From Slackia exigua ATCC 700122 (GTDB taxonomy: Bacteria > Actinomycetota > Coriobacteriia > Coriobacteriales > Eggerthellaceae), in contig NZ_GG700630.1 in assembly GCF_000162875.1 (NCBI RefSeq), forward strand, positions 20,657 to 84,656: a DNA stretch of 64,000 nt, written 5' to 3'. This document shows, piece after piece, positions 11,286-54,109 of this stretch. Below the pieces are notes generated by a model. It made no database searches and had not been told where the DNA came from. It saw only the letters and a program-made list of their open reading frames with translations. The position numbers and the translations under genes are program-made. How positions within the stretch are numbered: position 1 is the stretch's first letter; every line of letters starts with the position of its first letter.

Positions 11286-12113
11286 ATGAAGGTGGTCAGA
11301 GCCGAACATGCCGGCGTCTGCTATGGCGTCGAACGCGCGCTTGATATGGTGCGTGATGCCATGGACGGCGACGAGGACGTCTTCACGATCGGTCCGCTCA
11401 TCCATAATCCCCGTGTCGTGGCGCAGCTGAAGGATCACGGTGTGGAATCCATCGAAGGTCCCGCCGACGTGGATCACGGCATCGTGGTCTTGCGTACGCA
11501 CGGCGTCGAGCCGAGCGTCGTGGAGGAGCTGGACGAGCGCGGCCTGTCGAGCATCGATGCCACCTGCCCTCATGTGTCGCGCGCCCAGAAGGCCGCCGCC
11601 GATTTCGCCGCGCAGGGAATGACCGTGCTCGTCATCGGGCGTGCGTCGCATCCCGAGGTCAGGGGCATATGCGCGCATGCCGCGGGTTCGGCCGTCGTCG
11701 TGGCCGACGCCTCCGAGATTCCTGCGGACATCGCGGGTCCGGTCGGCATCGTCGTGCAGACGACCGAGAACAAGTCGAAGCTCGACGAGGTGGTCGCCGA
11801 CCTGCGCGGGCGGGGTATCGAACCTGTGGTGAAGAACACGATCTGCTCCGCTACGCGCAAGCGCCAGGATGCCGCCGCCGATTTGGCGGACAAGGTCGAT
11901 GCGCTCGTGGTCATCGGAGGAAAGAACTCGTCGAATACGACGCATCTCTTCGAGATCTGCCGCGCGCACTGTTCGCGTTCCTACCACATCGAAACGGAGG
12001 ACGAGATCGATCCGACCTGGTTCGACGGTGTGGAGGCCGTCGGTGTGACGGCGGGGGCCTCCACTCCCGACGAGCAGATCGAGGCCGTGGTCGCTCGCAT
12101 CGAATCCCTGTAA
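11286..12113 (+). CDS. ispH: 4-hydroxy-3-methylbut-2-enyl diphosphate reductase
   Basis: Last step of the MEP isoprenoid pathway: HMBPP is reduced to IPP and DMAPP by a [4Fe-4S] enzyme. The 275-aa product has the three cluster cysteines in AGVCYGVERAL (residue 13), ATCPHVSRAQ (about 96) and NTICSATRKRQ (about 186). The substrate motifs TENKSKLDEV, GGKNSSNTTHL and GASTPDEQIE are also present. The ATG at 11286 follows GAAAGGGA. Its last 51 coding bases plus 8 more are duplicated at 17312-17370, on the far side of an inserted island. The gene itself is intact. Confidence 0.96.
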   Translation: MKVVRAEHAGVCYGVERALDMVRDAMDGDEDVFTIGPLIHNPRVVAQLKDHGVESIEGPADVDHGIVVLRTHGVEPSVVEELDERGLSSIDATCPHVSRAQKAAADFAAQGMTVLVIGRASHPEVRGICAHAAGSAVVVADASEIPADIAGPVGIVVQTTENKSKLDEVVADLRGRGIEPVVKNTICSATRKRQDAAADLADKVDALVVIGGKNSSNTTHLFEICRAHCSRSYHIETEDEIDPTWFDGVEAVGVTAGASTPDEQIEAVVARIESL

Positions 12114-12121
12114 GGTTTCAG
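12063..12121 (+). repeat. Left direct repeat (attL-like), 3' end of ispH
   Basis: 59 bases spanning the last codons and stop of ispH, identical to 17312-17370 except for one silent change (12095 T versus 17344 C, both Ala). Together the two copies bound the island. Confidence 0.9.
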
Positions 12122-12187
12122 ACGAAGGCTTGAGGGATCATGTCCTTTTGGAATGTCCGAAGATGCGTCGCCTTTCCTTATCGTGTT

Positions 12188-13150
12188 TCATGAGTTCATC
12201 CAGAACTTATTGATGAGTTCTCCTCTGCTCGTGCAGTCGGTCTTCTTGAATATGTTATGGATATGCGTCTTGACCGTTCCCAATGCGAGCTGGAGTTCAT
12301 TTGCGATGTTCTGGTTATCGCGACTTTCCACCACCAGCCGCATGATCTCCTCTTCTCTCTGTGTAAGGCCGTATTTTTCAGAAAAGAAACTGAGCGTCTC
12401 GTCTTCGTCGATAGCTTCGGTATTTTTCTGGAATCGACCCATTGAAAACGCTCTTAAGGTCTTGATCGAGGCGTACATGAGGAAGCCGGCCCCTGTCGCG
12501 GCAAGCAAGGATTCGGAGATGTTTCGACGATAAAGGACCTCGGCGAAAGGAAGATTCGCCGCATCGACGCTCAACGTCAGCATGACAAGAGTATCTTCAA
12601 CCAACGTGAGCAGAATGAAGAGCGTGACTATGGTGAATTGCAGGCGTCTTCTCTCGTATCGTTTCTTCGTAGGGCCGTCCGGGGCTTTCATGTAGTTTGC
12701 GAGGCAGAATAAGACAATTGCCATGAGAAAGATCTGACGCATCGAATAGATGAACCATTTTTTGAGTCGATCGTCGATGTCGGGAACGAGGCATACGGTG
12801 ACGCAGGCGACAAGGAATATGGCGATGGGAATCCATCTGAGAATCCTGTTTTCAGAATCGTAGTATTCGATGACGGCGATCATAAGGGATTCGCACATAA
12901 CCGCACCAATTGCGATTCGCAGAAGCGGATCTTCCATGCTCGAGAATATTTCAGCTCGAAAAGGTATGTTTTGATTCAAGAATTCCCGGTATAGAATCAC
13001 GATTTGCTCTATGGCATACCCGAATGTCAGGATAGAGAGGAACGCCGCCATCCTCTTTCTCGAGACGATATACGAGGAAATGCTGAAAGCGCTTGCTATG
13101 CTCGCTACGACGATAAGGGATGCGGTGATCGAGAATTCAAGCGTCGCCAT
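12188..13150 (-). CDS. Membrane-bound LuxR-family transcriptional regulator
   Basis: Predicted one-component regulator with its sensor in the membrane. Six to seven hydrophobic segments (about residues 5-235) are followed by a cytoplasmic linker and a C-terminal LuxR helix-turn-helix. The HTH is YGLTQREEEIMRLVVES...IANELQLALGTVKTHIHNIFKKT (about 258-305). This membrane-LuxR layout is abundant in Eggerthellaceae. The start at 13150 is supported by AGGAGG six bases upstream. It is transcribed divergently from the deiminase gene across a 352-base region with three GTTTATC repeats, so it probably controls the island's catabolic genes. Ligand unknown. Low GC fits horizontal acquisition. Confidence 0.88.
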   Translation of the reverse strand: MATLEFSITASLIVVASIASAFSISSYIVSRKRMAAFLSILTFGYAIEQIVILYREFLNQNIPFRAEIFSSMEDPLLRIAIGAVMCESLMIAVIEYYDSENRILRWIPIAIFLVACVTVCLVPDIDDRLKKWFIYSMRQIFLMAIVLFCLANYMKAPDGPTKKRYERRRLQFTIVTLFILLTLVEDTLVMLTLSVDAANLPFAEVLYRRNISESLLAATGAGFLMYASIKTLRAFSMGRFQKNTEAIDEDETLSFFSEKYGLTQREEEIMRLVVESRDNQNIANELQLALGTVKTHIHNIFKKTDCTSRGELINKFWMNS

Positions 13151-13344
13151 GGAATCCTCCTGTCCGTGCATCGACGGTGCAGTGCATGAAAACAGTGCGC
13201 TTGCAGAAAATCGGGGGATTCATCATCCAAGGGCAGAAGAATCCTTCGCTCATGCAGAACGCGAACCTATAGAGACACTTGGATCGTAAGCCAAGCGCAG
13301 CGATTCGCTATTAACGGATTCGGTCGAGCGGTGCCTCTAATCAG

Positions 13345-13394
13345 GTTTATCCGAGTTTATCTGCCGCGTCGCCGCATTATTAGGCAAGTTTATC
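13345..13394 (+). promoter_or_regulatory. Three direct GTTTATC repeats in the divergent regulatory region
   Basis: GTTTATC occurs at 13345-13351, 13355-13361 and 13388-13394, within the wider pattern C-R-R-GTTTATC-Y-G. The starts are 10 and 33 bases apart, close to whole helical turns. They lie 110-160 bases ahead of the deiminase gene, a natural place for an activator such as the adjacent LuxR protein. The rest of the 13151-13502 gap shows nothing else I can name. Confidence 0.5.
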
Positions 13395-13502
13395 TGGGAA
13401 ATCAACCACATTCCATCTATGTGCGCCTACAAGCTGCGCCTATCTTCCGAGGCATTGAGCCACGCTTGCCGTAGAAGCTGGCATTTTCGAAAGGAGATGG
13501 AC

Positions 13503-14750
13503 ATGTCAAGCGCATTCAGGTATCCAGGAGAATTTGAACCGCAGACCGATGTTTTCGTCGAGTGGCTTCCGTACGCCGAGCCGATCAAAGGCTACGATGC
13601 GCTCGAGCCTGCCGTCGAAGTCGTGCGTAACCTGCTCGACGAGGTGAAAATCCACATCAATTGCTGTCCATATGTGGAAGGTCTCAAGGAATCGTGCGTC
13701 AAGGCGCTTGAAACCGCCGGAATCGACGTGGATCGAATCGATTTCACGGCATTCAACGAGGATCCGAACTCGTTCTACTTCCGAGACAACGGTCCCAACG
13801 TCATGGTCAACGACGAAGGCGAGACGTTGGTGGTGAATCCTAGCTGGAGCTTCTACGGACGCTACGAGAAGAACGAGGGCTTGCGCGATTGCTCTCGTAA
13901 AATTGGCGTGCAAGCCGCTATTGAGCTGGGTTGCTACGATATCGTGAGCTCTGACATGGTTTCTGAAGGAGGCGATCGCGAGTTCAACGGCGCCGGTGTT
14001 TTGATCGCCATTGAAGACACTGAAGTTCGCAAGCGCAATCCTGAATACAGCAAAGAGCAAATCGAGGAAGCATACAAGAAGCTCTGGAACGTCGGGAAGA
14101 TCATCTGGTTGCCTCAACCTATGGTTGATGACGATGATTTCCGCATTGCCCCACTTGACTACAAGGCGGACGGAACTCCCGTCGTTGGATCGAGCTTCGC
14201 CGCCCATAGCGACGAAATGTGTCGCTTTATCGGCAGAAATAAAATCTTGCTCGCCGAAGTCACCGAGGAAGAGGCTGCGTCCAGCCCGGTTTCGAAGGAG
14301 AACAAGCGTCGTCTTGATGCATGCTATGAGATTCTGCGCAATGAAACCGATCTCGAGGGAAACCCGTTCGAAATCATCCGCATTCCAACCTCGGCTCACA
14401 TTGAGTATATCCAGAGTCCCGGAGATGATCTGTACGACTACTATCACGAGCTTGTCGGCGACGCCTTCATGGATGGCACTCCCTGGCCGGAAGGACGCGA
14501 CCTGCATCTGTTCGCCGCAACGAGTTACTGCAATTTCCTAGTCTGCAACGGTGTGGTTTTGGGCCAGCGCTATTGGCGCGAAGGGATGGACCGGGCTGTC
14601 AAGGAAAAAGACGAGCAAGCCGAAGCGGTGCTCAACCGATGCTTCCCCGATCGCAAGGTCGTCATGATCAACAGCCTTGCCTTGAACATGGCAGGTGGCG
14701 GCGTGCATTGCTGGACCAAGAACGTCTTCGTTCCCGCGAATGCGCAGTAG
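13503..14750 (+). CDS. Agmatine deiminase family (porphyromonas-type PAD) enzyme
   Basis: Guanidine-modifying hydrolase that releases ammonia from a guanidino group. Agmatine giving N-carbamoylputrescine is the usual family reaction, but the substrate here is inferred. The 415-aa product keeps the family core: FRDNGPNVMV (about residue 93), SEGGDREFNG (about 156), HSDEMCRF with the catalytic His/Asp (about 235) and the nucleophilic Cys in GGGVHCWTKN (about 403). It is longer than standard AguA (about 365-370 aa). The ATG at 13503 follows AAAGGAG with six bases spacing. The neighbouring carbamoyltransferase would phosphorolyse a carbamoyl product. GC is lower than the flanks. Confidence 0.85.
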   Translation: MSSAFRYPGEFEPQTDVFVEWLPYAEPIKGYDALEPAVEVVRNLLDEVKIHINCCPYVEGLKESCVKALETAGIDVDRIDFTAFNEDPNSFYFRDNGPNVMVNDEGETLVVNPSWSFYGRYEKNEGLRDCSRKIGVQAAIELGCYDIVSSDMVSEGGDREFNGAGVLIAIEDTEVRKRNPEYSKEQIEEAYKKLWNVGKIIWLPQPMVDDDDFRIAPLDYKADGTPVVGSSFAAHSDEMCRFIGRNKILLAEVTEEEAASSPVSKENKRRLDACYEILRNETDLEGNPFEIIRIPTSAHIEYIQSPGDDLYDYYHELVGDAFMDGTPWPEGRDLHLFAATSYCNFLVCNGVVLGQRYWREGMDRAVKEKDEQAEAVLNRCFPDRKVVMINSLALNMAGGGVHCWTKNVFVPANAQ

Positions 14751-14799
14751 CGAACCTCCCAACGTATCGAGCCGTCACATTTCTATGAAAGGAACGATC

Positions 14800-15852
14800 A
14801 TGCGCAATACTCTTCGTGGCCAGGATTTCATCAACTTGCGTGACCTTACGCCCGACCAGTTCCGCTATCTGCTTGATCTGGCGCATACCCTGAAGGCCGA
14901 GAAGCGCGCCGGCGTCGATCAGCGTCGTTTCGTGGGGAAGAACGTCATGGCTCAGTTCGAATGGAGCTCAACGCGTACCCGCTGCGCGTTCGAGACCTCG
15001 TGCAACGATCTGGGAATCGGTTTTACGTACTTGTCTAACTCCCATGTTGGAGTGCAAGAGACGGTAAAGGATACCATCCGTGTGTTTTCCGAGATGTATG
15101 ACGCTATCGTTTGGCGTTCGCAGGGTCCCGAGAGGTTCATGTACGAAATCGCCGAATATGCCGACATCCCCGTTATCAATGCCTTGACTACCGAGGACCA
15201 TCCTACGCAGATGCTTGCCGACGCCATGACGCTCGAGGAGTTGTGGGGCGGTGCCGGTTCCTGCAAGGGTAAGAAGATGGCCTATCTCGGAGCTGCGGCT
15301 ATCGAGCCTCTATGGTATGGCCGCATGTGCGCATATATGGGTATGGACCTGTATGTCATCGGTCCTGATCTGTACGACCACAAGATGCTTCCCGAATATG
15401 TTCAGGAGCTTGAGGAGACCTTCGCCAAGCACGCTCCCCATAACAAGTTGATCATCTCCGACGACCTCAGCCTGTTGGAGGGTGTGGATGTTCTTACTAC
15501 CGAAGAATGGGAGTATACCAATTCCTCAACCGGCGACGACCACGGTTACGACTCCTGGATGCACTATGCCAAAGAATTGATTCCTTATCGCTTGACCAGC
15601 GAACTCATGGAAATTGTAGACAACCCTGATTGCATCGTTCTTCATATGCTGCCTTCCCTGCATAACGCTGACCACTCCTTGGGCCGGCAGCTCGTCGAGC
15701 AAGCTCCAACCCAGGAGGCCAGGAATCTTATAGTTTCCGGTCTTGAAATTTCCGATGAGCTGTTCGAGAAGCACGCTCATGAGATTTTTCGCGAAGCAGG
15801 CAATCGTCAGCACACCATCAAGGCCGTGCTCACGGCATGCATCGGTTGCTAG
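14800..15852 (+). CDS. Carbamoyltransferase of the ornithine/putrescine carbamoyltransferase family, divergent
   Basis: Expected to transfer a carbamoyl group between an amine and phosphate. The 350-aa product keeps the carbamoyl-phosphate site: SSTRTR (about residue 54) and DHPTQ (about 137). The second-substrate signatures differ from ornithine transcarbamylase. HCLPAFH is HMLPSLHN, the D-x-R-N-N loop is AAAIEP, and the SMG loop is replaced by an STGDDHGYDS stretch. So ornithine is unlikely, and putrescine or another amine is possible. The ATG at 14800 follows AAAGGA and lies 49 bases after the deiminase. No carbamate kinase gene is nearby to use the carbamoyl phosphate. Confidence 0.85.
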   Translation: MRNTLRGQDFINLRDLTPDQFRYLLDLAHTLKAEKRAGVDQRRFVGKNVMAQFEWSSTRTRCAFETSCNDLGIGFTYLSNSHVGVQETVKDTIRVFSEMYDAIVWRSQGPERFMYEIAEYADIPVINALTTEDHPTQMLADAMTLEELWGGAGSCKGKKMAYLGAAAIEPLWYGRMCAYMGMDLYVIGPDLYDHKMLPEYVQELEETFAKHAPHNKLIISDDLSLLEGVDVLTTEEWEYTNSSTGDDHGYDSWMHYAKELIPYRLTSELMEIVDNPDCIVLHMLPSLHNADHSLGRQLVEQAPTQEARNLIVSGLEISDELFEKHAHEIFREAGNRQHTIKAVLTACIGC

Positions 15853-15871
15853 CTGACTAATCGAATCTGAC

Positions 15872-15905
15872 GCAGGTCGCGTGAGTCTAGGTTCAGGCGA
15901 CCTGC
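15872..15905 (+). promoter_or_regulatory. Inverted repeat just upstream of the MFS gene
   Basis: GCAGGTCGC (15872-15880) and GCGACCTGC (15897-15905) are exact inverted repeats with a 16-base loop. No T-run follows. The right arm ends four bases before the ribosome-binding site GAGGTGAT, so it could be an mRNA-processing or attenuating stem between the transferase and transporter genes. Confidence 0.4.
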
Positions 15906-15921
15906 ATGCGAGGTGATTTCC

Positions 15922-17187
15922 ATGGAAAAGACCAAGGGGCTTCATCGTGCCTGGCTCGTCATGCTGGGATGCGGCATGCTCATCGCTGGGTCCGTGACGT
16001 TCTATACCGTTGTCATAGGTAACTTTTTCGTTCCTGCAGCGGCCGATCTCGAGGTCGACTATTCAAGCATCTCTCTGTACACGACCGTCGTGTATCTGGG
16101 AATTGCATGTGGGTTACCTTTCGTAGGCAATCTGCTTCATAAGATACCTCCGGCAGGTATCGCAGGTTTTGCGGCTCTGCAATCTGCCATCGTTGCACTT
16201 CTTGCTTTCAGCGACGGCATAGTCTTCTGGTGGATAGGCGGCTTCTTCATCGGTGTCGGCATGTCTTTCACGAGCATTGTGTTCATTTCCACCGTCTTGA
16301 CGAATTGGTTCACCAAGAAAACCGGTTTTGCCATCGGTGCAGCGTGGGGTCTTGCAAGCATCGTTTCGGCCATTATGAGTCCGCTTTCCGTCACGCTTAT
16401 GGACGCCATTGGCTGGCGGTCGGCCATGATCGTCTTCGCTGCCATTGGGGCCGCATTGGCTATTCCCGCCGCCTTGTTCATGGTTTCGTACAGTCCTGAT
16501 CGTAAAGGCATGAAATCTTACGGTTACGAGCAGGTCGCGGGTGCTGAGGGTGAAACCGAGCCGCTCGTCGGCGTGCCAGCGAAGCATGCGTTGAAGTCCA
16601 TGTCTTTCGTCCTGGTTGCATTGGCGCTTGCTCTTACTCAAATCGTTTCAGTCATCAACGCATATTTTCCGGTGTATGCCGAAAGCGTTGGTTTCGCTCC
16701 GACGGTAGGTGCGCTGATGATTTCGGTGGCCCTCATCTTCGACATCGTGCTCAACGCTACTGTAGGAGCCACTATCGACAAGATAGGAGCGATACGCGGT
16801 TTCGTTTCGTGGATGGCGGTTTCGGTCGTTGCCATGGTCATTCTGATGTTCAGCGCCGGTCAACCGCTTCTTGCGTATCTTGGCGCCGGCTTGGGCGATG
16901 CGCTCTACGTCCTTTTGGGCGTCGGTATTGCATCGGTCGTTTCCCATGTGTTCGGGACGAAGGATTACGGCAAGATTTTTGCATACATATCGATGATAGG
17001 TTTCGCCGCCGGGTCGGTCGGAGGATTCGTGATCACTAGGCTATACGAGGTCACTGGTTCGTTTCAGATGGTGTTCGTGTTCTGCATCGTTGTGTGTGTC
17101 GCTATCTGCGGTTGCGTCCTTCTTGCCAACGCATTGGGCAAGAAGCTTCCGCGCGTGTCTGACGATGGTGCGATCCCTGACGAATAG
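15922..17187 (+). CDS. MFS transporter (oxalate/formate-antiporter-like group)
   Basis: Twelve-helix secondary transporter of 421 aa, with hydrophobic segments throughout and a central cytoplasmic loop (about residues 195-225). It resembles the OFA/MCT-like MFS branch: the N-terminal HRAWLVMLGCGMLI lead and FFIGVGMSFTSI region are typical. The usual AguD agmatine/putrescine exchanger is an APC protein, so this is a different solution if it serves the same pathway. The ATG at 15922 follows GAGGTGAT. It is the last gene of the island and most likely imports the guanidino substrate or exports the amine product. A strong terminator follows. Confidence 0.82.
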   Translation: MEKTKGLHRAWLVMLGCGMLIAGSVTFYTVVIGNFFVPAAADLEVDYSSISLYTTVVYLGIACGLPFVGNLLHKIPPAGIAGFAALQSAIVALLAFSDGIVFWWIGGFFIGVGMSFTSIVFISTVLTNWFTKKTGFAIGAAWGLASIVSAIMSPLSVTLMDAIGWRSAMIVFAAIGAALAIPAALFMVSYSPDRKGMKSYGYEQVAGAEGETEPLVGVPAKHALKSMSFVLVALALALTQIVSVINAYFPVYAESVGFAPTVGALMISVALIFDIVLNATVGATIDKIGAIRGFVSWMAVSVVAMVILMFSAGQPLLAYLGAGLGDALYVLLGVGIASVVSHVFGTKDYGKIFAYISMIGFAAGSVGGFVITRLYEVTGSFQMVFVFCIVVCVAICGCVLLANALGKKLPRVSDDGAIPDE

Positions 17188-17208
17188 CTGTTTTGCATTC
17201 TGACGAGA

Positions 17209-17242
17209 GAACGCCGCTTTGCGTGGATGCAAGGCGGCGTTC
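17209..17242 (+). terminator. Strong stem-loop after the MFS gene
   Basis: A 14-bp stem (17209-17222/17229-17242, one G-T pair) with loop GTGGAT, followed by TTGATG. It closes the island transcript 22 bases beyond the stop. Confidence 0.75.
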
Positions 17243-17311
17243 TTGATGACGTAGCAGTTCCGTCGACCGTAGCGTATGTATCGTCGTCTACCGAGAACAA
17301 CGCTTAATTCA

Positions 17312-17370
17312 ACTCCCGACGAGCAGATCGAGGCCGTGGTCGCCCGCATCGAATCCCTGTAAGGTTTCAG
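17312..17370 (+). repeat. ispH: Right direct repeat (attR-like), displaced ispH 3' end
   Basis: Copy of the last 17 codons, the stop and 8 further bases of ispH, in frame but with no gene body in front of it. It differs from 12063-12121 at one silent base. It marks the ancestral junction between ispH and the M23 peptidase gene. The surrounding 17188-17529 gap holds only this repeat, the terminator and a promoter candidate. Confidence 0.9.
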
Positions 17371-17397
17371 GAAGAGCATCCTCCGTTCATGTCGAAA

Positions 17398-17529: not shown

Positions 17530-18756
17530 ATGACCGAACCAAGCTCTGTACGCTCGATCCGGGATTTCTCCCGCCGAAATTTCGTCAAGCTCGCCGGCCT
17601 CGCCGCGCTGGGCATGACGTTCCCGCGCCTCGCGTACGGCGCGGAGTCCGACGATCTCGATGCCAAGGCGAAGGCTCTCGAAGGCAATCTTGCCGATCAG
17701 CAGGCTCAGTACGACGAGCTTTCCGCCAAGCTCGATGTTCTGAAGCAGCAAGTCAACGATGCGCTCGTCGCCTACGACAAGGCCACTGCCGCCCATGAGG
17801 CCGCCGTTCAGGCGGTCGAAGACGCCCAAGTGCGCGTCGATAACGCGGAAGCCGCCCTGGCCGACATCCAGACTCAGCTGTCCGACCGCGTGACCAACAT
17901 CTATCGCCAAGGCGAGCCGGGCATCTTCGACGTGCTCTTCGACTCTTCGTCGTTCGAGGAGTTCGTGACCAGCTGGGATGCCATGTCCCGCATCAGCGCG
18001 CAGGACGCCGATCTCGTCCAGCAGTCCAAGGATGCCAAGGCCGAGGCCGAAGCCGCCCATAAGGAATACACCGAGCAGGAAGCCAAGGCCGCCGAAGAGC
18101 TTCAGAAGGCGACCAAGGCCAAGGACGATCTCGAAGCCGCCCAGGAAACCCTGCAGAAGCAGGTCGACAAGATGGATCAGGACATCATCGACCTTCAGCA
18201 GGAGATCGAAGCCACGCGCATGGACGCCGACGCCGCGCGCGAGAAGGAAGAAGCCGCCGCGAAGGCCGCTGCCGAGGCTCTTGCCAAACAGAAGTCCACG
18301 GCCCGCTCGTCCGCCAGCTATTCGTCCGCATCCAGGTCCACGTCTCCGTCCATCTCCGTCGACGGCTGGGTGAATCCGGCTCCGGGCAAGCACGTCACGA
18401 GCCCCTTCGGCTGGCGTGCCTCCACGGGCACCTTCCACCAGGGCGTCGATCTGAGCTGCTCGTACGAACCTTGCTACGCCATCGGCGACGGCACGGTGTC
18501 GTTCACGGGCTGGCTCGCGTCGACGAGCGGCCTGTCGGTCGCCATCAATCACGGCGGCGGCACCGTTTCCTGGTATCTGCACGGTTCCGAGGCGCTTGTG
18601 AGCTCCGGATCGTCGGTTTCCGCCGGCCAGCAGGTGATGATCACCGGCAACACCGGCCATTCCACCGGCCCGCACCTGCATTTCCAGATCAACGTCAACT
18701 CGCCCGACGGCATCTACGGAACCGCCGTCGACCCCCAGCAATACTTCAGCTGGTAA
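17530..18756 (+). CDS. Tat-exported M23 peptidoglycan endopeptidase with coiled-coil domain
   Basis: Exported cell-wall hydrolase expected to cut peptidoglycan stem peptides during growth or division. The 408-aa product begins with a twin-arginine signal (SRRNFVK followed by a hydrophobic stretch, cleaved near ...LAYGAE). A PcsB-like coiled coil follows (about residues 40-255). A Ser-rich linker leads to the C-terminal M23 domain with HQGVD (about 307-311) and GPHLHF (HxH, about 381-386), the zinc ligands. Tat export is unusual for this family, most members using Sec. The ATG at 17530 follows AGGAG by ten bases. A terminator follows at 18781-18808. Confidence 0.92.
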   Translation: MTEPSSVRSIRDFSRRNFVKLAGLAALGMTFPRLAYGAESDDLDAKAKALEGNLADQQAQYDELSAKLDVLKQQVNDALVAYDKATAAHEAAVQAVEDAQVRVDNAEAALADIQTQLSDRVTNIYRQGEPGIFDVLFDSSSFEEFVTSWDAMSRISAQDADLVQQSKDAKAEAEAAHKEYTEQEAKAAEELQKATKAKDDLEAAQETLQKQVDKMDQDIIDLQQEIEATRMDADAAREKEEAAAKAAAEALAKQKSTARSSASYSSASRSTSPSISVDGWVNPAPGKHVTSPFGWRASTGTFHQGVDLSCSYEPCYAIGDGTVSFTGWLASTSGLSVAINHGGGTVSWYLHGSEALVSSGSSVSAGQQVMITGNTGHSTGPHLHFQINVNSPDGIYGTAVDPQQYFSW

Positions 18757-50687: not shown

Positions 50688-50757
50688 AGTTCTGCATTGA
50701 AACGAAAGGTGAGTTCATATCGCATCGCGTGGTCGAGGTCTCGGCGGGGAGGCGCCT

Positions 50758-51672
50758 ATGAATACCGATCAGTTCAAGCACTTCGCCTTGGTTTACAAGC
50801 TTCGCAGCTTTGCCTTGGCTGCTTCTCAGGTTCCTATGTCGCCTCAGGGTCTCGCGAAATCCATTCGCAAGCTCGAGCAGGAATTCGATGTGGAGTTCTT
50901 CGAGGCCGATGCGTCGGGCGCCCGCGTCCCGACTGAATTCGGCGATCGCATGATGGATTTCGTCAACGAGGCAGAGCTTCAGCGTGTCCAGCTCGTTTGG
51001 GAATTCGATCGAATTCGCGCCAGAAGGCAGAAGCGCGTGCGCGTTGCGTCCTGCCTAGGAATATCCGGGTTCATCGGCCTGCGGTTGAAAGAGGCTTTCG
51101 AAGCACGGAACCCCGATGTGCGCATAGATCTTATCGAGCTCAGCGACGATGCCTGCGACGAGGCCATCTCGCTCGGACGCGTCGATCTCGGCTTCACGCT
51201 CGCGCCGTTCGACGGGAGGCTTGCGAACGTTCCTTTGTTCACGGAGCCGTTCTATCTATGGATCAACGTGAAGGATCCACGTTCCAAGAAGGAGTGCGTG
51301 ACCATGTGCGATCTGGATGGGGCATGCGTTTCGTCGTTCGGGGATGGGATCAAGTGCGACGCGGTTTTGAGGAAGAGACTTGCAGAGGCGGGCTCTGCGC
51401 CGACGTTCTTCAATTCGCCCGAGGTGTATTGGCACTACGAGAACGCTTTGCTGAATCGATCGATCGGGCTGACCGTCCAGCATTTCGTGGCTCTGAAGGC
51501 GTTTTGCGCCAGCGACGAGGTCCGTGCCGTGCCGCTCGATGACCTGAACTGGTCGATCGGCTTGTCCTACATACCTTCCCACGTATTCGCCGAACATGAG
51601 GCCCGTTTCGTGGATTTCGTGACGACGCATGCAGAAGCCATGGCGATCGAAGCGCGCATGCCGGGGTGCTGA
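50758..51672 (+). CDS. LysR-family transcriptional regulator
   Basis: 304-aa LTTR. The N-terminal HTH (about residues 1-60, FALAASQVPMSPQGLAKSIRKLEQEFDVEFFEA) precedes an effector-binding domain (about 90-290). The ATG follows GGGGAGG. It is transcribed divergently from the Tat-exported FAD reductase, which it most likely regulates in response to that enzyme's substrate. It ends 29 bases from the convergent NUDIX gene. Confidence 0.94.
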   Translation: MNTDQFKHFALVYKLRSFALAASQVPMSPQGLAKSIRKLEQEFDVEFFEADASGARVPTEFGDRMMDFVNEAELQRVQLVWEFDRIRARRQKRVRVASCLGISGFIGLRLKEAFEARNPDVRIDLIELSDDACDEAISLGRVDLGFTLAPFDGRLANVPLFTEPFYLWINVKDPRSKKECVTMCDLDGACVSSFGDGIKCDAVLRKRLAEAGSAPTFFNSPEVYWHYENALLNRSIGLTVQHFVALKAFCASDEVRAVPLDDLNWSIGLSYIPSHVFAEHEARFVDFVTTHAEAMAIEARMPGC

Positions 51673-51701
51673 TGAAACGGAATGCGTAAAGGCCGTCGCG
51701 A

Positions 51702-52097
51702 TCAGCAGCGGAATAGTTCGGATTTGATTCTCTCGATGATGGAGCCGTCGGCAGGAAGCCATGCCGCCTCGTCGATGGTCGAGGCATCCAGCCAACGTGC
51801 GGAGGCGTGTTCGAGCAACGTCAGATCTCCTTCGACCACATGGCATAGATAGCATCGCATGCTCAGGTGGAAGGCGGGGTAATCGTATTCCACGGTCATG
51901 AAGTGCGAGTCCACGGCGATCCGCGTGGCAAGCTCCTCGCGAATCTCGCGCTCGAGCGCCGCTTCGGGCGTCTCGCCCGGATCGATTTTGCCTCCGGGGA
52001 ATTCCCAACCGCCTGCGAAGTCGCCGTATCCGCGCTGGGTTGCGAATATCTTATCATCGTGCCTGATGATGGCCGCAACAACATCAATGGTTTCCAC
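51702..52097 (-). CDS. MutT/NUDIX-family nucleotide pyrophosphohydrolase
   Basis: Small hydrolase, probably cleaning 8-oxo-dGTP or another nucleotide. The 131-aa product has the complete Nudix box GGKIDPGETPEAALEREIREEL (residues about 33-54), preceded by WEFPGG. GTG 52097 is chosen because AAAGGAG lies six bases upstream and the family N-terminus (ETIDVVAAIIRHDDKIFATQR) follows. An upstream ATG-started extension would be unconserved. Confidence 0.93.
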   Translation of the reverse strand: METIDVVAAIIRHDDKIFATQRGYGDFAGGWEFPGGKIDPGETPEAALEREIREELATRIAVDSHFMTVEYDYPAFHLSMRCYLCHVVEGDLTLLEHASARWLDASTIDEAAWLPADGSIIERIKSELFRC

Positions 52098-52479
52098 AAT
52101 GGGCTCCTTTCTGCAGTCGCGACATTGTATCCAATGGCAAAGAAGCATCCCGTTTATCGTCAATGATCCCCGTATCGTCATCGGGCCTCTCGAAAGGCTT
52201 TCATAGAAAAGAATGGTCATATGATCGTTTCCTGCCGCCTATTTGCTTTGCAAAACAAGGCCAGACCGATACGCGAAGCCCATCGAGCATACGCATCCGC
52301 TTTCGATTGAATGCGAAGATTCGGGCGTATCCGGAGGCATTGCCGAAAAGACAGCACTAATAATGCGCGTGCAGCTAAGGATCCGCATCGACGGCTGTGC
52401 TCAGGAAGCCGAAGCTCCACCGCAGGCGATGATGCACGATCGGGCAGAATCCCCTGACCGCGGAGGAGGGGATGAAACC
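52098..52479. other. 382-base gap between divergent NUDIX and SemiSWEET genes
   Basis: Only the ribosome-binding sites of the two neighbours are evident. I see no convincing gene, RNA or strong repeat here. Confidence 0.5.
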
Positions 52480-52737
52480 ATGAATCAGAAGACGCTTGGA
52501 ATCGTGGGATGGATAGCGACCTGCACGGCCATGCTCATGTACATAGCGTACTTCCCTCAGATCATCCACAACCTGCATGGAGATAAGAGCGGTTTTCCGC
52601 AGCCTCTGGTTGCGGCAATCAATTGCACCTTATGGGTCAGCTACGGGTTTTTCCAGGAGAAGAAGGATTGGCCTATTGTCGTAGCCAATGTGCCTGGCGT
52701 TATATTCGGTGCGCTCGCTGCGCTTACTGCCCCGTAG
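52480..52737 (+). CDS. SemiSWEET-type sugar transporter
   Basis: 85-aa membrane protein with three helices, the size of bacterial SemiSWEETs that dimerise to form a sugar uniporter. The PQ-loop motif is in YIAYFPQIIHN (about residues 21-31). NCTLWVSYGFFQEKKDWPIVVANVPGVIFG (about 48-78) is typical of helices 2-3. The ATG at 52480 follows GGAGGAGGGG. It stands alone between a NUDIX gene and a DUF3290/DUF421 pair. Sugar unknown. Confidence 0.88.
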   Translation: MNQKTLGIVGWIATCTAMLMYIAYFPQIIHNLHGDKSGFPQPLVAAINCTLWVSYGFFQEKKDWPIVVANVPGVIFGALAALTAP

Positions 52738-52853
52738 CCGGTGCATCGGAGGTTGCACTCTCGAGAGAGATCGTTTGAACGCACGCGATGCAGACGGATA
52801 CTAGGATCTTGCCGTTAGATACGGGGCGCATCGGAACCGAGGTTGAGTGACGC

Positions 52854-53390
52854 ATGAACTTCTATGCCCTTGACTACATCATCTCGCACCAATCCGCCGA
52901 TTCGGTCCTGCGCGTGGGCATGATGCTCGCCTTGCTCTTGGCGGGCATCGTCTTCACCGTGCTCTACCTACGCGATAGAATACGGACCCGCTGGCGAGAC
53001 GCGGGGGTGGGCGCCATCGTTCTCCTGTTGGTGCTGGCGGGTGTGCAAACCGAGCAATATTGCCAGGCAAGCAACCGGATATCCCAGTTCCAGCTGCTTG
53101 TGAAATTCGTCGAGGGAGTCGCTGAGGACCAACATGTCTCGGAAAACGAGGTGCTGGTGAATTCCACATCTCTGAAAGACGGCATCATCGTGCGCTTCAA
53201 TGAAGAGGACTACCTCGTTCATCTCAATGACGACAATAACTCCTACACGCTTGAGCGAACGCACATCATCGACCATAACGTCTACGTGAACGGGGAGCGC
53301 CGACATGGACTTCTATACGCTGACGGCCATCAAGTTCTCGCTGGGCATGCTCGTGATGATCCTCCAGATCAACATTCTCGGAAAGCATGA
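52854..53390 (+). CDS. DUF3290 family membrane protein
   Basis: 178-aa protein with two N-terminal membrane helices (about residues 18-40 and 48-66) and a soluble C-terminus. It matches the DUF3290 pattern (FYxLDYI start; LKDGIIVRFNEEDYLVHLNDDNNSYTLERTHII). The family is nearly always next to a DUF421 protein, as here. The last 28 codons overlap the start of the DUF421 gene in another frame and look unconserved, so the reading frame may have lost an earlier stop. Function unknown. Confidence 0.8.
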   Translation: MNFYALDYIISHQSADSVLRVGMMLALLLAGIVFTVLYLRDRIRTRWRDAGVGAIVLLLVLAGVQTEQYCQASNRISQFQLLVKFVEGVAEDQHVSENEVLVNSTSLKDGIIVRFNEEDYLVHLNDDNNSYTLERTHIIDHNVYVNGERRHGLLYADGHQVLAGHARDDPPDQHSRKA

Positions 53391-53964
53391 CTTCTCCCTC
53401 AATACTCCGCTCCCTCAAGTCCAGAATTACGTTTTGGGCGGCATCATAGGAGGAGTGATCTACAATCCGTCGGTCACGGTGCTCCGGTTCCTGATAGTTC
53501 TTCTCATCTGGTCGCTCGTCGTTGTGGCGGCGAAGTTCCTTTTCGGGAGCAGCAAGACGTTCAGGCGGGTCGTCGCCTGCCGTCCTGAGCTTATCGTCTG
53601 CGATGGAGAGGTGGACGTCTCGCGCTGCGCCAAAGTCGGCCTTACGGCCGAGCAGCTTTGCAGAAGCCTGCGCGAGAACAGCATTTCCGCTCTTAAGGAT
53701 GTGGAAGCGGCCGTCATGAAAACCGACGGCAGGCTTACGATCCGCGCGGGCGGCACGCAAAGCGATGGTTTGCTGTTGCCGTTGGCGAGCGACGGCCATC
53801 TGGTGCAGGATGGTCTGAAGCTTGCGGGCAAGGATGAGGCGTGGGTGATGGAGCAGATCAAAACGCAGGGATATACCTCGATGAAACAAGTCTTCCTAGG
53901 CGAGCTTGTGGATGGAAATCTTGAAGTGGTGCCGTTCTCTCGGGCTGTCGGACAAATCCGATAA
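53305..53964 (+). CDS. DUF421 family (YetF-like) membrane protein
   Basis: 219-aa protein with three membrane helices (about residues 8-25, 42-60, 62-82) and a cytoplasmic domain. The second half has GKTYKRVVACRPELIVCDGEVD-like and LRENSISALKDVEAAVMKTDGRLTI, the YetF/DUF421 hallmark. The ATG follows GGGGAG by seven bases inside the end of the DUF3290 gene (86-base overlap). The pair is probably one membrane complex of unknown role, linked to envelope stress in Bacillus relatives. Confidence 0.86.
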   Translation: MDFYTLTAIKFSLGMLVMILQINILGKHDFSLNTPLPQVQNYVLGGIIGGVIYNPSVTVLRFLIVLLIWSLVVVAAKFLFGSSKTFRRVVACRPELIVCDGEVDVSRCAKVGLTAEQLCRSLRENSISALKDVEAAVMKTDGRLTIRAGGTQSDGLLLPLASDGHLVQDGLKLAGKDEAWVMEQIKTQGYTSMKQVFLGELVDGNLEVVPFSRAVGQIR

Positions 53965-54109
53965 CGGTTCCTTCAAGATTAACGAGGGCTACGGGAAGGC
54001 CTTTCGTCTTTGATTAGACAACCAATCTATCTCACGCTTCAATCGTGGCAACTTGTCATATGATTAGCTTGTACGGCATGCACGAATTGGACGCGAAAGG
54101 AGGGCCTCG

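Follow-up and report, generated by a model that had tools for sequence, protein, structure and literature searches.

A cis-mobilizable element (CIME) is an integrative and conjugative element (ICE) or an integrative and mobilizable element (IME) that is without its integration and transfer genes and retains both attachment sites, attL and attR (PMC5704250). In Dehalococcoides, ssrA-specific genomic islands carry vcrABC, and 16 of 31 have a syntenic integration module (PMC3146451). As for metabolic cargo, the agmatine deiminase operons of Enterococcus (aguBDAC) and Eggerthella lenta join a deiminase to a carbamoyltransferase and a transporter; E. lenta has a second agmatine-type operon that, as reported in 2023, is not induced by agmatine (PMC10234575). 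Here we describe an island behind ispH in a stretch of 64,000 nucleotides (the window) of Slackia exigua ATCC 700122, which consists of a four-gene cassette similar in gene content to agmatine deiminase operons and is framed, in the manner of a CIME, by two copies of the 3' end of ispH.

The initial annotation proposed that the end of ispH (51 coding and 8 further bases) recurs 5249 bases downstream with one silent difference, and sequence comparison bears this out: the two directly repeated copies (Table 1) are identical at 58 of 59 positions, and the sole mismatch, GCT against GCC, leaves an Ala codon in both. The edges of the repeat are sharp, with ungapped matches at only 12 of 60 positions in the left flank and 22 of 60 in the right one. 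The repeat is far above chance expectation, because the window contains no other direct repeat of at least 32 nt (16-base seed) and the whole genome contains no third copy, the next-best matches being about 24 bases long with E >0.05. Exactly four genes lie between the copies, a luxR gene on the reverse strand followed by deiminase, carbamoyltransferase and MFS transporter genes on the forward strand; 66 bp and 124 bp separate them from the two repeats. That all four are lower in GC than their surroundings, as was also claimed, is correct: the island has a GC content of 52.5%, against 62.0% for the remaining window, which is the lowest value of all 5.2-kb stretches there, and GC at third codon positions is 0.62–0.66 in its genes and mostly 0.74–0.85 in the flanking ones. 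ispH is left intact, and the gene-end repeat stands on both sides of the island.

Table 1. Features of the island and its borders, in window positions.
Feature	Position	Strand	Evidence or remark
ispH (4-hydroxy-3-methylbut-2-enyl diphosphate reductase)	11286..12113	+	TIGR00216 E 5e-83, above cut-off; Pfam LYTB
59-bp repeat copy 1, attL-like	12063..12121	+	final 51 coding bases of ispH including stop, plus 8 bases
LuxR-type regulator, long N-terminal part	12188..13171	-	GerE E 1.6e-13, residues 269-321
Agmatine-deiminase-like enzyme, 415 aa	13503..14750	+	PAD_porph E 1.8e-44
Ornithine/putrescine-carbamoyltransferase-like enzyme, 350 aa	14800..15852	+	OTCace_N, OTCace; below ornithine (OTC) and putrescine (PTC) carbamoyltransferase cut-offs
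MFS transporter	15922..17187	+	MFS_1 E 1.4e-26; NF049980, NF038246, TIGR00890 below cut-off
Hairpin, 16-bp stem, behind transporter gene	17207..17244	+	terminator-like, without clear T run
59-bp repeat copy 2, attR-like	17312..17370	+	no ispH gene preceding
M23 peptidase gene	17530..18756	+	Peptidase_M23 E 1.4e-23; usual downstream neighbour of ispH in genus

Since the assembly is a draft, a misjoined scaffold could have placed the cassette at ispH. Runs of N marking gaps do occur elsewhere in the assembly, but this region is free of N, the two repeat copies differ by one base and the native gene order is kept on both flanks, all of which makes an artefact hardly credible.

The ispH-M23 junction was compared at species level with that in 11 further Slackia genomes. 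The four island genes follow ispH in none of them. The M23 gene lies approximately 90–140 bp after ispH in 10 of the 11; in the remaining genome M23 is missing, and a DUF512 gene is found directly behind ispH. In the window, the native order ispH-M23-DUF512-der picks up again after copy 2, and the island thus does interrupt a housekeeping gene order, as proposed. For the segment from copy 2 to M23, alignment with the spacers of the relatives is only loose, and its native origin rests mainly on this gene order. In Slackia sp. S30M (S30M_St_16), one of the 11, M23 directly neighbours ispH on one contig and the cassette is found on another. A scan downstream of 37 ispH loci of relatives revealed no long repeat of the gene end; the 25-base matches that it returned at position 1 reflect overlap of query and subject, together with overrun past a shifted stop in a few loci. 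The C-terminus of the window's IspH resembles that from a genome of another family (L060), and its import from there may be considered, although IspH C-termini vary widely.

This arrangement also bears on the suggestion, raised by the initial annotation as a refuting alternative, that the repeat arose by local rearrangement. In this scenario, the cassette would first have entered the gap between ispH and M23, and a duplication with partial deletion would then have added the second ispH end. While formally possible, this requires several events with ends falling exactly on both borders of the island, and copy 2 runs directly into the native M23 gene, as a single insertion predicts. We therefore regard such a rearrangement as very improbable.

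The distribution of the cassette points to movement between genera. In the family, 11 of 138 genomes (the window's own included), distributed over eight genera, encode a carbamoyltransferase with 81% or more identity to that of the window. Ten named Eggerthellaceae records, including Senegalimassilia, Parvibacter, Raoultibacter, Rubneribacter and Adlercreutzia, have an identical layout of reverse-oriented luxR, deiminase, carbamoyltransferase and MFS transporter, and these cassettes sit at loci with different neighbours; in Senegalimassilia anaerobia, the cassette and ispH are on different contigs. Identity of the carbamoyltransferase between genera reaches 94–98%, versus 64–82% for the housekeeping GTPase Der, and the comparison of Slackia sp. 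with six genomes from other genera gives 95–98% and 64–74%, respectively. As each of the 45 pairs formed by ten genomes shows the carbamoyltransferase to be the more alike of the two proteins, the cassette must have moved between genera, and it is a horizontally spreading, probably catabolic set rather than ancestral DNA. The regulator behaves differently from the enzymes. LuxR proteins are approximately 30–46% identical between most cassette groups, with the window's regulator at approximately 30–38% to those in the same position of other cassettes, while the enzymes are mostly 73–98% identical; because of this disparity, the regulators must either diverge or be exchanged much faster. Distant enzymes were all that the region, the deiminase and the carbamoyltransferase retrieved from plasmids and phages, and searches of viral contigs with the deiminase and ispH retrieved a single distant ispH.

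The lack of these genes at the corresponding locus of relatives, presence of the cassette elsewhere in other genera and a carbamoyltransferase more alike than Der together identify the island as an acquired insertion, and we have very little doubt that it is real and was acquired laterally. Of the earlier proposal of integration at the 3' end of ispH, then, acquisition at this place stands, while the site-specific step is plausible only.

As a mechanism, we propose that a lateral catabolic cassette was inserted between ispH and M23, with the 59-bp repeat representing the duplicated insertion site. A circular element would, through an attachment site of its own, have undergone site-specific recombination with the 3' end of ispH, using a recombinase that was provided in trans or lost afterwards. 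Such an insertion would keep ispH complete and shift the native ispH-M23 spacer to behind copy 2, and its residue (attL, cassette and attR) would be a CIME-like relic. Site-specific integration at the ispH 3' end is in our opinion the best single reading of the locus, held with even confidence and no more, and its recombinase step is one that we infer. Integration of this sort does occur in the lineage, because the genome has tyrosine recombinases and an integrase-bearing element at tRNA-Met. There are five tyrosine recombinase genes, all outside the island; no member of the serine resolvase family was found in the genome. The tRNA-Met element is approximately 9.8 kb long (L117:7668-17495, corresponding to G000:C2 ~1055667-1065494) and has 48-bp repeats at the tRNA edge, with a Phage_integrase protein encoded just inside one of them. 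It resembles the island in being an insertion of several kb with a direct repeat of similar length at a gene edge, but differs in possessing a tyrosine integrase and in targeting a tRNA gene. A YobI-like P-loop NTPase domain is present in a further protein of this element, 1324 aa long.

The resemblance to CIMEs is similarly incomplete. Like them, the island has its cargo flanked by directly repeated copies of a gene 3' end, with the target intact, both repeats present and no integration or transfer gene. However, no related ICE or IME with this ispH site is known or was found, the island has no decayed mobility genes and it contains little beyond the cassette. The ssrA islands of Dehalococcoides likewise bring respiratory or catabolic cargo into a fixed gene-end site and contribute to strain differences, but there many islands share the site and integration modules are present, whereas at ispH we see one island and no module. 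The island can thus be described as being of the integrase-less type framed by a duplicated gene end, which is a known kind, with a target, ispH, that is without precedent in the papers searched: nothing relevant on ispH or lytB as an attachment gene was found in the literature covered, most subscription journals lying outside that search.

Several observations weigh against site-specific integration. The first is the lack of machinery. As already noted in the initial annotation, there is no integrase in the island, and our search of it found no recombinase, relaxase, phage, excision or transfer gene, nor a remnant of one; with spacers as short as those at the two repeats, the loss of mobility genes would have to have been very clean. 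Within the repeat, the perfect inverted arms of 6–9 bases expected for a simple core site were not found. Second, the site has no known counterpart. Searching for the ispH-repeat site in 397 genomes of the order gave short, weak matches, several of the strongest at known ispH genes, and viral contigs gave none. The recombinase-bearing relatives that the initial annotation suggested looking for beside an ispH repeat did not materialize, as no element combining the ispH attachment site with a recombinase was found in the genome, the 397 genomes of the order or the viral contigs. Around the cassettes of other genera no framing repeats were found. Third, the near-identity of the 59-bp copies implies that the incoming copy originated in this species or one very near to it, since an element arriving directly from another genus would share merely a short core; the first event in the chain therefore stays unexplained. 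Finally, a regenerated gene end is by itself no proof of an integrase. Any survivable insertion at an essential gene must keep ispH whole, and the position of the repeat is for this reason weaker evidence than it appears.

Because the second copy stems from this or a very close species, readings based on a single crossover and on break repair both keep some probability. In the former, circular or circularised DNA carrying the cassette together with a same-species ispH 3' end would have entered by transformation or conjugation and recombined through one RecA-mediated (Campbell-type) crossover within the 59 bp, with no site-specific recombinase involved. A single crossover of this kind yields precisely the observed anatomy, the identity at 58 of 59 positions is what same-species homology requires, the genome has a ComEC-type competence gene, and the lack of a recombinase in the island would need no explanation. 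However, the donor itself must have had the cassette next to these 59 bp, which pushes the question one step back, and no such donor was found in the genome or among the 397 genomes of the order. We consider this route unlikely, though it deserves to be taken seriously.

Alternatively, the repeat may have been generated during the repair of a break near ispH, with the cassette being copied in and synthesis resuming 59 bases upstream, so that the target was duplicated once. The length of the repeat would then be arbitrary and the event not repeatable. The nearly bare state of the cassette within its repeats agrees with this, the unframed cassettes of other genera suggest ordinary non-specific acquisition, and selection for a whole ispH would favour survivors shaped like the island. 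Nevertheless, a 59-bp duplication around a 5-kb insertion would be unusual for template switching, and no Ku end-joining gene was found; repair of this type seems unlikely to us.

If we return to site-specific integration, a wider version of it would be that a hitherto unrecognised family of small Slackia islands uses the ispH 3' end as its attachment site and mobilizes metabolic cassettes by means of a recombinase acting in trans. Here we can offer no more than a doubtful suggestion. As a side observation, the motif TCATGTC occurs at an equal offset behind both repeat copies (12138-12144 and 17387-17393), an in-register coincidence with p ~0.003 by shuffling; it could be fortuitous, be left over from a longer repeat or be an arm site for a recombinase.

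Turning to the cargo, the enzyme families suggest that the cassette likely serves to form ATP through the deimination of a guanidino compound. A guanidino compound would be taken up and deiminated to a carbamoyl derivative, and the carbamoyl group would be transferred to phosphate, with ATP then being formed via a carbamate kinase whose gene lies outside the island; we infer both the catabolic direction and the ATP yield. The deiminase belongs to the agmatine deiminase superfamily but fails assignment as AguA, scoring 107 bits with the equivalog model TIGR03380, for which the cut-off is 381.8. In an alignment with 1xkn it retains the catalytic Cys in a C-terminal GGGVHC (the GGG-x-HC motif) as well as the central H-x-D pair.

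The carbamoyltransferase can be compared with the published signatures of the ornithine and putrescine enzymes (PMC3282769). On alignment with 7xjt, STRT and HPTQ are kept, while HMLP replaces HCLP, as it does in all ten cassette copies, and there is no SMG loop. Two residues before STRT, a Trp occupies the position at which ornithine enzymes carry Lys. The ornithine signature (HCLP, SMG loop and Lys two before STRT) is consequently lacking, as is that of putrescine carbamoyltransferase (HCLP plus the 230-loop), the loop being different. Judged by these signatures, the protein belongs to neither the ornithine nor the putrescine type. At the HCLP position, HELP or HMLP is found in related operons of other Eggerthellaceae and of a Lactobacillus; one of these operons (L187, G303:C1:523000-537500) encodes a deiminase, carbamoyltransferase and MFS transporter of 39–56% identity, with HELP replacing HCLP.

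The MFS transporter is closest to lactate and oxalate/formate-type models, all of them below cut-off. Behind the transporter, a carbamate kinase gene is found in Eggerthellaceae bacterium ABMPRH_67_1 (L127:11858-12811) and Lactobacillus sp. YT155 (L130:11746-12690), and three further relatives have matching DNA at that position. This gene is missing from the window's island; the genome has one arcC above the model cut-off and one just below it, both outside the island. The cassette therefore resembles agmatine operons in its combination of deiminase, carbamoyltransferase and transporter, and, in some of its relatives, in the adjacent carbamate kinase, but differs from them in falling below the AguA, OTC and PTC cut-offs, in lacking the OTC and PTC signatures (PMC3282769) and in its MFS transporter and LuxR regulator.

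The locus offers a clean example of the exchange of an energy-yielding gene set among Eggerthellaceae, together with a junction open to concrete tests, at an essential gene that is not among the integration targets in the papers searched. The cassette, shared between genera and encoding a carbamoyltransferase that matches neither of the known specificities, points to a pathway of guanidine fermentation that has yet to be assigned.

Between the transporter gene and copy 2, the segment 17188-17311, in which the terminator-like hairpin lies, folds at -45.4 kcal/mol (z -2.7). A second stretch of lower-GC genes is present in the window at approximately 50700-54000 (0.55–0.58).

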